DNA of 52,091 bases from Elusimicrobiaceae bacterium (GTDB lineage: Bacteria; Elusimicrobiota; Elusimicrobia; Elusimicrobiales; Elusimicrobiaceae), in contig JAFUJU010000012.1 of the NCBI GenBank assembly GCA_017468055.1, positions 1 to 52,091 of the forward strand. Reading direction: 5' to 3'. The notes beneath the pieces were generated by a model, which was given only the letters and a program-made list of their open reading frames with translations, was not told the DNA's origin and searched no databases. Positions 31,259-35,160 of the stretch are shown here, in pieces. The position numbers and the translations under genes were made by a program. How positions within the stretch are numbered: the stretch's first letter is position 1; each line of letters starts with the position of its first letter.

Positions 31259-31762
31259 ATGAACGGTTGGGCGAAATTCTTTTTATTAATTGTGTGTTGT
31301 ATTTTTACACTGATTTTGTGGCCGCAGTATGATAAGACCGGCTTACAATTTATGGGTATGCTGTGTTTGTTATGGACGTGTATCATTTTACTGGTATCTA
31401 TTGTCGGAAATATTTTCGCCCTATACAAGTTTGAGTTTTTAAACCGCTTGGTCAGTTTGGCTTTTTTGGCGGCATTGTTGGCCTCCTTAATTTATTATTT
31501 TCCGTTGAAAAACGACCAAACCCCTTATCTGCGTATGAAAAATAATATTTGGCCCACAATTGCCGATGCAAAAGCAGGTATCCAACGCTTAACTTTTAAT
31601 TTTGATTTTGTCCGTCGTAACGTTCATAGAGAGGACAATTACGTAAACCAACAATTAAACAAGGCGTCTGCCAGTAAGAAAAATATCCAAAAAGCTGTCC
31701 AAAAAACACAAGAGGTATTGGATATCATCGTTGAACCGGCCGATGAGGAGAACGCACAATGA
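31259..31762 (+). CDS. Membrane protein of unknown function
   Basis: 167 residues. Three hydrophobic helices are visible at about residues 5-20, 31-54 and 64-82, followed by a polar C-terminal half with a predicted helix (QLNKASASKKNIQKAVQKTQEVLDII). AGGAG precedes the ATG. It begins one base after the TonB-like gene and overlaps the epimerase gene by ATGA, so it belongs to the tol operon. I do not recognise the family. Confidence 0.75.
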   Translation: MNGWAKFFLLIVCCIFTLILWPQYDKTGLQFMGMLCLLWTCIILLVSIVGNIFALYKFEFLNRLVSLAFLAALLASLIYYFPLKNDQTPYLRMKNNIWPTIADAKAGIQRLTFNFDFVRRNVHREDNYVNQQLNKASASKKNIQKAVQKTQEVLDIIVEPADEENAQ

Positions 31763-32715
31763 AGAAGACGGTATTAGTAACGGGCGGAAACGGATTTATT
31801 GGTAAGAAACTAACAGATGCACTCTTACAGGAGGGGTTTAAAGTTAGAATTGTTTCCCGCCGCTTGCCTAAACAACAACCGCTCAATCCGGACGTCAGCA
31901 TTGTACAAGCTGACTATCAGAATGTGGATTCTTTATGCAAAGCTATGAAAGGTTGCCACTATGTTTATCACTTGGCAGCTGCAATCTTTGGTTTTCAATT
32001 TAACGATTTTCATCGGGCTAATACCGTTGCCACCCAAAACATGGTCCAAGCCTCCAATCAAACGGAAGGTTTGGAACGTTTTATTTATGTATCCAGTTTA
32101 GCCGCCAGCGGTTTTGCCCCTACGGCCACCCAACCGCGCACGGAATCTGATACGCCAACTCCTTGCTCTGATTATGGTATTACCAAACTGGGGGGAGAAG
32201 AAGCCGTTAAAACTCTAAAAGAAGGTATTTCTTGGACCATTGTCCGCCCGCCCATTGTGTACGGAAAGAATGATTCCGGTGTTTCCAAAATTGCTTCTTG
32301 GGTTCGCAGAGGCCTGATGGTAAATACTTCCGGAAAAGGCCTTTTTAGCTTTGTCTATGTAGAAGACTTAGTGAAAGCTTTAGTCCTGATTACTCAGTTG
32401 CAAGGTACACATAAAGAAACTTTTTTTATAAGTGAGGAGGCCACTTATTTATGGCCGGTTTTTATTGAAAAAATGGCCGCTGCTATGGGAGTGCGTAAAC
32501 CTTTTATGCCCAATGCTCCGTTATGGGTCCTTAAAATAGCTGCCAATATCTATTCCTTTTTTGCCCGTATATCCGGCAGTCAGCCCGCCCTTAACTATGA
32601 TAAGGTGAAAGAGGCCGTCATTGCCGGTCACTGGATTTGCTCCAGTGCCAAATGGCGCGAGCTTAGCCGGCAGGAATTTACTTCTTTAGACGAAGGATTG
32701 AAAAAAAGTTTTTAA
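31759..32715 (+). CDS. NAD-dependent epimerase/dehydratase (extended SDR)
   Basis: 318 residues. The nucleotide-binding TGGNGFIGKKL (about 8-18) is the GxxGxxG motif of extended short-chain dehydrogenases. The catalytic pair YxxxK is in SDYGITKLGGE, with the serine of VSSLAASG before it. A typical family member acts on a nucleotide sugar or a dihydroflavonol/sterol-like substrate, and the sequence alone does not say which. It overlaps the preceding gene by 4 bases. Last gene of the tol unit. Confidence 0.87.
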   Translation: MKKTVLVTGGNGFIGKKLTDALLQEGFKVRIVSRRLPKQQPLNPDVSIVQADYQNVDSLCKAMKGCHYVYHLAAAIFGFQFNDFHRANTVATQNMVQASNQTEGLERFIYVSSLAASGFAPTATQPRTESDTPTPCSDYGITKLGGEEAVKTLKEGISWTIVRPPIVYGKNDSGVSKIASWVRRGLMVNTSGKGLFSFVYVEDLVKALVLITQLQGTHKETFFISEEATYLWPVFIEKMAAAMGVRKPFMPNAPLWVLKIAANIYSFFARISGSQPALNYDKVKEAVIAGHWICSSAKWRELSRQEFTSLDEGLKKSF

Positions 32716-32790
32716 CTTTTTTCATAAAAAATAACAAAATACTTTCATTATTTGTTATAATATTTAAGTCGTAATAATAAAATCTTTTTT

Positions 32791-32881
32791 GGAGAGGTGG
32801 CCGAGAGGCTGAAGGCAGCGGTTTGCTAAACCGCCATACAGGTTAATTCCTGTATCGAGGGTTCAAATCCCTCCCTCTCCG
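32791..32881 (+). tRNA. tRNA-Ser (GCU)
   Basis: 91 bases. Acceptor stem GGAGAGG/CCTCTCC with discriminator G at 32881, D arm, anticodon stem GCGGT/ACCGC with loop TTGCTAA (anticodon GCT at 32825-32827), the long variable arm of class II tRNAs (CATACAGG...CCTGTAT), and T arm GAGGG-TTCAAAT-CCCTC. It reads AGC/AGU codons. CCA is not encoded. A strong TATAAT box lies about 30 bases upstream (32755-32760), and a terminator follows. Confidence 0.96.
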
Positions 32882-32882
32882 T
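32864..32882 (+). repeat. Direct repeat, copy 1 (tRNA-Ser 3' end; att-like)
   Basis: CAAATCCCTCCCTCTCCGT, the last 18 bases of the tRNA plus one flanking base. It recurs exactly at 33083-33101, as expected of an integrase attachment core. Confidence 0.85.
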
Positions 32883-32890
32883 ATGAATTT

Positions 32891-32920
32891 AAAAAAGCAC
32901 CCGAAAGGGTGCTTTTTTAA
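32891..32920 (+). terminator. Terminator after tRNA-Ser
   Basis: Perfect 12-bp stem AAAAAAGCACCC/GGGTGCTTTTTT with a GAAA tetraloop. Confidence 0.95.
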
Positions 32921-33082
32921 TTTATAATGAATGGCAGCGGCATAAACTGCTTTATGCCGCGTAGGGATTTGAAAACCGCAGCGATGTTTTTGTTTGAGCC
33001 GATTTAAAAGTTCCACTCGGCGAAAGGCAAAAACCGCGAGGCCGGACTGCAGGCGTTTTGAGTCAACAAAACGACCGGAAGG

Positions 33083-33101
33083 CAAATCCCTCCCTCTCCG
33101 T
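33083..33101 (+). repeat. Direct repeat, copy 2 (duplicated tRNA-Ser 3' end)
   Basis: Exact 19-base copy of 32864-32882. The rest of a tRNA is missing around it (no matching T-stem 5' side or acceptor 5' side), so it is not a second tRNA gene but looks like the far boundary of an integrated or excised element. Confidence 0.85.
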
Positions 33102-33118
33102 TTTACTATACAAATGAT

Positions 33119-33145
33119 TTCCCCGCCGAAAGCGGGGATTTTTTA
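33119..33145 (+). terminator. Second terminator after the duplicated tRNA end
   Basis: Stem TCCCCGC/GCGGGGA with a 5-base loop and a run of six T, directly after the second repeat copy. Confidence 0.88.
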
Positions 33146-33217
33146 TGCCTTTATCGTCGTAAAACATATAAAGATGTGTAAAGGTATGAAAAGGCAAATC
33201 AAGAAAAAATGAGAAAA

Positions 33218-33269
33218 AAGTGGGGGACGAAATGGGGGACGCATGATTTTTGAAAAGTGGGGGACAACA
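33218..33269 (+). repeat. Three GTGGGGGAC-type repeats
   Basis: (G/A)TGGGGGAC occurs three times in about 50 bases, between the duplicated tRNA end and the msbA promoter. It could be a remnant of a repetitive integrase-gene end or a protein-binding array; nothing decides which. Confidence 0.55.
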
Positions 33270-33327
33270 CTTCCCTTTTTTTACAAGATTCTTTTATTAC
33301 TTCTCCCGTATTAGACAATATAAAATA

Positions 33328-33336
33328 TGCTAAAAT
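33328..33336 (+). promoter_or_regulatory. Extended -10 promoter of msbA
   Basis: TGCTAAAAT, identical to the elements before tyrS and ftsK, about 49 bases before the msbA ATG. Confidence 0.5.
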
Positions 33337-33384
33337 TAGTCTATATATAGTATTAAATAACGGATTTGTCCTTTTGGAGTTTTT

Positions 33385-35160
33385 ATGATTAAAAAAATGA
33401 TTTCTAAAAATCAATTAGTCATCAATGCCAAGCGAATGTGGCCTTACATTAAGCCTTTTTGGTTTCGGGCATCGTTAGGGGTCTTCTTGACTATTCCCGT
33501 TGGGGGATTAGATGCAGCGGTAGCCATGTTCATGAAACCTTTTATGGACAAAGTGATGGTGGATAAACAGCCCAACTTCTCTGCCATGATTCCTTTTTTG
33601 ATCGTCGGATTTACTGTTTTGCAAGGGGTATTGCAATATGCCTCTAACTATCTAAATACATGGGTAGCCAACAAAATTACCATCGGTGTTAAACGCAAGC
33701 TTTATGCAAAACTACTCTGCATGGACAGCAGCTATTTTGATAACAACAATTCCGGCACCATTCTCTACCGATATTCCAACGACGCAGAAACCGCCTCCAA
33801 CGGTTTGGTGGAAAATACTAAAAAGTTTCTTTCCAAAACTTTTTCTTCCATTGCCTTAGCCATTGTCATGTTGTACAACTCGTGGCACTTGGCATTGATT
33901 GCCATTGCCGTATTGGGATTGTTCTTCTATCCTATCGTTTTTGTAAGAAAGAAAATGAAAGAAATTGTAAAGAAATCCGTAGTCAACCTTTCTTCTGTTA
34001 TGACTATTTACAACGAAACTTTCTCCGGCAACAAAACCATTCGTTCTTTTACTTTGGAGCCGGAATTTAGTAAACGCTTTCACCAAGCGACCGATACTAC
34101 CTTTGCTTTAGCTATGAAAATGGTCAAAACAACCAACTGGCTTTCCCCGTTAATGCATATTATTATGTCTGTAGGGATTGGGTTGGTAATCGGCTGTGGA
34201 AGTTATTTAATCGTCAGCGGACGCATTACCAGTGGTAACTTTGTGGCCTTTATCGCCGCGTTGATGATGCTTTACACTCCGTTAAAAGGGGTAGGAAATA
34301 ACTTTGTGGCCATTCAAAATTCCTTCTTAGCTATTGACCGTATTTTTGAAATTTTGGATTTGCAACCTGCCCTTAAAGATGCCAAAGATGCCAAAGAATT
34401 AGCAGAAATCAAAAAAGGTATTTTCTTTAAAAATGTACATTTTGAATATGTGGCAGGACGGGAAATATTACATGATATTAATTTGGAAATTCCGGTAGGA
34501 AGCACTGTAGCCTTGGTGGGGAATTCCGGAGGGGGAAAGAGTACCGTCTCTGCCTTAATTCCGCGCTTATATGACGTCACCAAAGGAAGCGTAACTATTG
34601 ATGATATGCCGGTAACAAAGCTGACCCAAAAGTCTTTGCGCCAGCAGATTGCCATGGTTTTCCAAGATAATTTTTTATTCTCCGGCACCATTAAAGAAAA
34701 TATTTTACTGGGCAATCCTCATGCGACGGAAAAAGAGATGTGGGCCGCCCTTAAAAATGCTTGTTTGGAAGAGTTTGTCAAAGAGCTTCCCAATGGATTA
34801 GATACCGAAATCGGAGAGAGAGGCCTATTACTTTCCGGCGGTCAAAAGCAACGTTTGGCCATTGCCCGGGCCTTCATCAAAGATGCGCCGATTGTTATCT
34901 TGGACGAAGCCACCAGTGCGTTGGATAACAAATCCGAGCGCGTAGTACAGGAAGCCTTGGATAACTTGATGAAAAACAGAACGGTTGTTGTAATAGCCCA
35001 CCGCTTGTCAACAATTCAAAATGCTACCAAAATTGCTGTCATTAACGACGGAAAAATAGTAGAAGAAGGCACCCATAAAGCCCTTTTGGCCAAAGGCGGT
35101 GCTTACTCTGCCCTATATGCTATGCAATTTAAAGAAAAAGAGAATAAGAAAGAAGATTAA
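33385..35160 (+). CDS. msbA: MsbA-like ABC exporter (lipid A/multidrug type)
   Basis: 591 residues, a full half-transporter. Six membrane helices occupy about residues 20-320, and the ATPase domain follows from about 345. The ATPase has Walker A GNSGGGKST, the ABC signature LSGGQKQRLAIARAF, Walker B IVILDEATSALD and the switch histidine in VVIAHRLSTI. MsbA is the likely family member in a diderm (flipping lipid A core across the inner membrane), but other homodimeric exporters look alike. GGAG precedes the ATG. It has its own promoter and terminator. Confidence 0.87.
   Translation: MIKKMISKNQLVINAKRMWPYIKPFWFRASLGVFLTIPVGGLDAAVAMFMKPFMDKVMVDKQPNFSAMIPFLIVGFTVLQGVLQYASNYLNTWVANKITIGVKRKLYAKLLCMDSSYFDNNNSGTILYRYSNDAETASNGLVENTKKFLSKTFSSIALAIVMLYNSWHLALIAIAVLGLFFYPIVFVRKKMKEIVKKSVVNLSSVMTIYNETFSGNKTIRSFTLEPEFSKRFHQATDTTFALAMKMVKTTNWLSPLMHIIMSVGIGLVIGCGSYLIVSGRITSGNFVAFIAALMMLYTPLKGVGNNFVAIQNSFLAIDRIFEILDLQPALKDAKDAKELAEIKKGIFFKNVHFEYVAGREILHDINLEIPVGSTVALVGNSGGGKSTVSALIPRLYDVTKGSVTIDDMPVTKLTQKSLRQQIAMVFQDNFLFSGTIKENILLGNPHATEKEMWAALKNACLEEFVKELPNGLDTEIGERGLLLSGGQKQRLAIARAFIKDAPIVILDEATSALDNKSERVVQEALDNLMKNRTVVVIAHRLSTIQNATKIAVINDGKIVEEGTHKALLAKGGAYSALYAMQFKEKENKKED

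Follow-up and report, generated by a model that had tools for sequence, protein, structure and literature searches.

A phylum-wide family of small, structured, non-coding elements tied to the 3' ends of tRNA genes in Elusimicrobiota

The segment immediately downstream of a tRNA-Ser(GCT) gene in an Elusimicrobiaceae genome (assembly GCA_017468055.1, contig JAFUJU010000012.1; the whole stretch of 52,091 nt that was analysed is referred to as the window) is one copy of a phylum-wide, non-coding, array-forming family whose members are locked to tRNA gene 3' ends. These elements are approximately 200 letters in length, strongly folded, and carry an antisense 'address' matched to the tRNA gene beside which they lie; both the existence of the family and that of the tRNA-matched address are firmly established. 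As far as could be found, such a structured, tRNA-tied family in Elusimicrobiota is previously undescribed, as a search of the open-access literature, with subscription papers outside its reach, returned no element with this combination of features.

Several further copies of the segment 32884-33105 are present in the same genome, at 75-84% identity, bringing the total to about nine, and a similarity search of 61 related genomes with this segment found matches in nearly all. A covariance model, R1, comprising 43 pairs and built from an alignment of 15 copies, identified copies (between one and 24 per genome) in 60 of the 61 genus members searched, and extended the family to 113 of 295 Elusimicrobiota genomes, including those of several other families. 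The great majority of 179 distinct copies are associated with tRNA genes: 139 are at most 110 bp from one on the same strand and 21 more are found further along, mostly in tandem, leaving 12 without a tRNA and seven at the start of a contig or locus. At least some of the tRNA-less copies, in genomes G007 and G011, have been parted from their tRNA by an island or prophage, at whose distal end they now lie. In all, 28 tRNA species are associated with element copies. A preliminary description of the segment had proposed, as one of two alternatives, a very small non-coding mobile element mobilised by an integrase in trans. An integrase in trans may or may not be involved; a very small non-coding element built around a tRNA core is supported by the finding of copies at other tRNA genes both in this genome and, in their hundreds, in its relatives, rather than of a segment fixed at one locus with no copies elsewhere.

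Read in the orientation of the tRNA, the order of parts is the tRNA 3' end and its terminator, a sequence antisense to tRNA nt 66-72, a hairpin (hp1), a sequence antisense to tRNA nt 54-64, a constant core of about 95 nt consisting of arms A and B, and the 3' end of the tRNA repeated in direct orientation from nt 56/57, in many cases with the local terminator copied behind it. Across copies, hp1 has a 7-10 bp stem of freely varying sequence and the loop AACTGCTT, and occupies the position corresponding to tRNA nt 65, the antisense of which is matched in just 5% of copies. The repeating unit starts at the T-loop nt 56/57 step and runs from tRNA nt 57-72 and the terminator through the antisense acceptor, hp1 and the antisense T-arm to the core, after which the next unit begins, whether complete or only in part. 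The window copy and its surroundings are laid out as follows.

32790..32882, plus strand: tRNA-Ser(GCT), the gene preceding the element (T54 at 32862, C56 at 32864).
32864..32882, plus strand: left direct copy, the genuine tRNA 3' end from nt 56 (exact 19 bp repeat).
32886..32923, plus strand: tRNA terminator hairpin, native-like, being similar in the empty site L051 and found on both sides of the element in G023.
32929..32936, plus strand: guide 1, the slot that in other copies holds the antisense of tRNA acceptor strand nt 66-72; degenerate here (window copy by inspection).
32937..32960, plus strand: hp1, a hairpin with a 10 bp stem and the conserved loop; the stem sequence varies with compensatory changes across copies.
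32963..32973, plus strand: guide 2, AGGGATTTGAA, the exact antisense of nt 54-64 of its own tRNA-Ser.
32974..33045, plus strand: core arm A (AGCGATGTTTTTGTTTGAG...GGCGAAAGGCAAAAACCGCGAG), from alignment and covariance model.
33046..33082, plus strand: core arm B (CGGACTGCAGG, a hairpin with a GTCA loop, ACCGGAAGG), from alignment and covariance model.
33083..33101, plus strand: right direct copy of the tRNA 3' end (exact repeat; the R1 match spans 32934-33091).
33102..33280 (end approximate), plus strand: remnant of prophage attachment DNA, outside the element, with a terminator and GTGGGGGAC-type repeats; the integrase gene is gone.

What had been noticed beforehand at this locus was confirmed, with one correction. 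The 19 bp direct repeat CAAATCCCTCCCTCTCCGT, at 32864-32882 and 33083-33101, is exact with a spacing of 219 bp, a match with a probability of arising by chance of about 1e-9; the inverted 11-base copy of the T-arm at 32963 corresponds without mismatch to the reverse complement of nt 54-64 of the tRNA; and the two perfect hairpins are located at 32937-32960, where the loop is CTGC, and at 33054-33071. A terminator had also been placed at each end: both hairpins exist (32886-32923 and 33120-33138), but the second belongs to the prophage attachment stretch, outside the element. No open reading frame of 90 aa or more is present within 32716-33384, and the element is without an integrase of its own. 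Searching the window with Rfam 15 covariance models, including a permissive run, found only tRNA, the segment falling far from any gathering score; the permissive matches, mostly to the terminator, were attributable to chance.

The address follows the adjacent gene closely. In a permutation analysis of 107 copies, the antisense T-arm matched its own tRNA at 9.50 of 10 positions, compared to 7.90 (standard deviation 0.08) when shuffled, and the direct acceptor copy at 6.48 of seven, compared to 4.53. A perfect antisense T-arm match to the copy's own tRNA was found in 71 of the 107, and to other tRNA types in 0.4%. Among 73 positions at which the right copy has diverged, the antisense agrees with the tRNA at 66 and with the right copy at three, a count that leans somewhat in the tRNA's favour because the antisense was placed where it fitted the tRNA best. 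The antisense therefore tracks the tRNA, not its partner within the element. On this basis a tRNA-like RNA is rejected, in which antisense and right copy would together rebuild the acceptor and T stems.

The fold is similarly well defined. When R1 was applied to 90 distinct sequences, 96.2% of cells were paired and two-sided changes were present in 31 of the 43 pairs, with 606 compensatory two-sided cells against 195 in shuffles, exceeding all 500 of these. The covariation was lost once pairing partners were slid, and the strand in the tRNA sense folds better than its opposite.

Comparisons between loci make it likely, if indirectly, that the elements are mobile. In one relative (L051), tRNA and terminator are present and the element is absent, whereas in another (G023) the same locus holds a 98.7% identical element flanked by a duplication of about 52 bp, extending from the T-loop through the terminator poly-T, so that a second version of the native terminator stands behind the right copy. 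The left/right repeat reaches at least 20 nt beyond the tRNA in 57 of 134 copies. Arrays can be mixed, with the cores of adjacent copies being at least 99% identical in seven of 19 pairs and less than 85% identical in six, and near-identical cores, differing by 2.1%, carry different addresses at tRNA-Val in G036 and tRNA-Met in G028.

Right tRNA copies have often changed exactly at nt 58-61 with the rest intact, at many loci (L129, L184 and L168, for example), which could represent a joining footprint or protection from re-cutting. At several array ends (L016, L282, L295, L298 and L311) the right copy is joined straight to the hp1 stem, as if a hairpin formed by acceptor, terminator and antisense had been deleted by slippage; these joins suggest that this hairpin forms in DNA.

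The explanation tentatively favoured, falling only a little short of probable, is that of a non-autonomous element acting at the level of DNA, the folded single strand of which would be the recombination site for a recombinase supplied in trans. In single-stranded form the element would fold, its sense and antisense stretches of tRNA origin annealing to give a double-stranded stem, while hp1 and the core arms would serve as features for protein recognition. The recombinase, either a host Xer-type enzyme or one from other mobile elements, would exchange this stem with the part of a tRNA gene that has the same sequence, so that circles of about 200 bp are inserted or excised and the tRNA is left intact. 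Locus fidelity would then stem from the required identity with the target, and cores would spread among loci through homologous recombination between copies. Counted in favour of this explanation are the matching to the element's own tRNA, the covariation, the empty and filled sites in L051 and G023, the repeats reaching beyond the tRNA, the mixed-core arrays and, as described below, the DNA-like folding, the lack of wobble bias and the lack of a promoter-like site. A bolder reading, on the whole unlikely, is that these are a new, minimal class of mobile element widespread in one phylum, having no gene, a core of about 95 nt and a locus-matched address in two parts, complementary to the 3' end of the tRNA, with a hairpin at nt 65 between them. 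Such an element would insert at tRNA genes by nucleic acid-directed recognition via a putative recombinase and have its address rewritten on moving to another tRNA.

A number of observations weigh against the favoured explanation. The Cys loci of three species (G011, G015 and G079) keep their left module while their cores differ, which is not predicted by plain insertion of a circle. As the Leu and Ser copies of G079 moreover have a common right flank, recombination through cores must contribute; it is not claimed that each change of address was a transposition event, and retargeting of whole elements as a simple cause of tRNA tracking is weakened, given the recombination of cores between loci and the ability of left modules to remain in place. 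Conservation is higher in orthologous copies than in the sequence flanking them, reflecting either selection on the sequence or preferential exchange, and the element may hence have a function that is selected for. Arrays have ragged right ends; a precise right border at the antisense of nt 57 was considered, and is seen in a few arrays only (L270, L304 and L200). Arm A contains an invariant U-G/U-G step, and among the other core pairs G-U is modestly above A-C, as would be the case for RNA. Excision or circles were not observed, the number of tyrosine recombinases does not follow copy number, genomes with no copies have extra ones too, and none of the candidate recombinases examined was picked out as the mobiliser.

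With respect to the last of these, the genome containing the window (86.6% complete) encodes only XerC- and XerD-like tyrosine recombinases, and across the genomes examined XerC/D are accompanied by one to seven other tyrosine recombinases per genome, without assignment to IntI. Reverse transcriptase (PF00078) is absent from this genome and from seven of ten high-copy genomes, the IS110 transposase (PF02371) is absent from this genome, the one searched, and the Y1 transposase (PF01797) is absent from nine of the ten high-copy genomes. None of these, nor a dedicated tyrosine recombinase, is supported as the mobiliser.

The main rival, considered unlikely, is that the element operates as a guide RNA: the top strand would be transcribed by read-through of the tRNA terminator and fold, with the antisense pairing to the tRNA or its gene, either guiding a nuclease or recombinase or regulating the tRNA. 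Such a role would fit the tight covariation on the tRNA-sense strand and the invariant loops, as well as the arm A U-G pairs, the G-U excess in the core, the antisense following the tRNA rather than the right copy, and the conservation of copies relative to their flanks. However, no promoter-like site was found in the region of the window copy, which lies between two terminators, and its genome lacks IS110. The stems of variable sequence are almost devoid of G-U pairs (two of 429 paired cells in hp1 and three of 588 in arm B, whereas the acceptor stems of the adjacent tRNAs have 36 of 651, or 5.5%), and mismatches between address and tRNA have no wobble bias, with 40 being G-U and 52 A-C. Together, the rarity of G-U in stems, the absence of wobble bias and the lack of a promoter-like site tend to favour a DNA hairpin over an RNA, but the invariant U-G step of arm A points the other way.

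It is improbable that the elements have no dedicated mobility, and are old, locus-bound repeats, inverted and direct, of tRNA ends, which template switching at inverted repeats, together with recombination among cores, would have kept matched to the tRNA. The persistence of left modules while cores change, the right flank shared between the G079 Leu and Ser copies and the ragged array ends are all as this would predict, but it leaves unexplained the same core at 28 tRNA species, the fixing of hp1 at tRNA nt 65, the patchy presence of the elements and the empty site in a relative.

Adjacent to the right copy in the window, 33102-33280 has a 73% match to G007:C9:20520-20663, which lies between a tRNA-Ser(CGA) gene and that for a 391 aa integrase; the stretch is the remnant of a prophage attachment region abutting the element's right copy, the intact counterpart being that in G007, and its GTGGGGGAC-type repeats are likely to be integrase arm sites. 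In G011, a 13 kb island at tRNA-Val(GAC) is bordered by element copies (L227; G011:C34:133000-152000). Both cases might be taken to indicate a host decoy attachment site, in which extra tRNA 3' ends absorb the integrases of phage and islands, but the integrating elements in G007 and G011 used the true tRNA rather than the decoy, and the structured core and antisense would be needless, making this very improbable. The island encodes a 334 aa integrase along with Rep-like, Fic-like and 726 aa ATPase-like proteins, and has a truncated element copy at its left end, on the basis of which islands may transport these elements.

The other alternative of the preliminary description, an excision scar or the end of one particular island, accounts for the classic direct repeat of the tRNA 3' end and for the neighbouring prophage remnant, but is scarcely credible for 32883-33082, being refuted by the recurrence of the same structured unit beside 28 tRNA species, also as tandem copies and for the most part with no island present; it is correct just outside the element, since 33102-33280 is decayed prophage attachment DNA.

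These elements resemble a number of known systems without coinciding with any. The attC sites of integrons are recombined as strand-specifically folded single-stranded DNA (PMC6393395, PMC3053210), and share with the present family a conserved fold with variable, strictly paired arms and an arrangement of differing units in tandem behind a fixed platform. By contrast with integrons, the unit here has no gene, the platform is any of many tRNA genes, and no integron integrase was picked out; nor are the attC R' and R'' boxes, GTTRRRY and RYYYAAC, present, the tRNA side being GTTC and the base after the antisense GAA being A or G in almost every copy. REP/BIME sequences, associated with RAYT (Y1) transposases, are likewise small, non-coding, hairpin-forming, multicopy intergenic repeats (PMC2817692), but are not locked to tRNA 3' ends with a matched antisense, and Y1 transposases are missing from most high-copy genomes as described above. 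Islands and prophages that integrate into tRNA genes have in common with the element that each border carries the 3' end of the tRNA as a direct repeat, starting in the T-loop, and that the tRNA stays intact; the element differs in its size of about 200 bp, the absence of an integrase, the covarying fold, the tRNA antisense and the dozens of tRNA targets per family. The sequence matching of a target and a structured non-coding part recalls IS110 with its bridge RNA, except that the IS110 transposase is lacking from the window's genome and the two guide parts, with a hairpin between them, are antisense to the same single strand. Finally, retrovirus-type primer binding sites are also antisense to the last nucleotides of the tRNA used, but the match here is interrupted by hp1 at nt 65, and reverse transcriptase shows the absences already given.

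If mobile, these would rank with the smallest known site-specific elements, would be the first described, as far as found, with an address complementary to each target tRNA, and would point to a new recombinase or RNA-guided activity. If not, they still constitute an undescribed structured family that is conserved throughout a phylum and bound to tRNA genes. They also supply extra tRNA 3' ends usable by phage and island integrases, and the ease with which copies are found makes both readings directly testable.

A search of viral contigs with strict element patterns returned either no match or a single contig, and matches to generic att-core and core-motif patterns were unrelated. The one contig (L041; IMG/VR contig 3300033463_005745, 2836-3319) is classed as viral and has three tandem element copies at its end, beside bacterial genes; these are probably the host flank of a prophage. 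In the window, the neighbouring genes encode an epimerase-type protein (31759-32715) and an MsbA-like ABC transporter (33385-35160), the closest named relatives of the latter being from ruminant-gut Elusimicrobiaceae metagenome-assembled genomes, at 89 and 85% protein identity. Elements can themselves be interrupted by other repeats. A second small family, containing GCGCGCACCTAGTTCACTAGGCACGCGC and ending in GCACCTTGCCAACCCCAG, is inserted at the start of the core at four G011 loci (L270, L180, L271 and L289), apparently amounting to four copies in that genome, and a third repeat type (CGGATACCTCCGCGCTA...) cuts off element cores at L274 in G079, L275 in G072 and L276 in G015.
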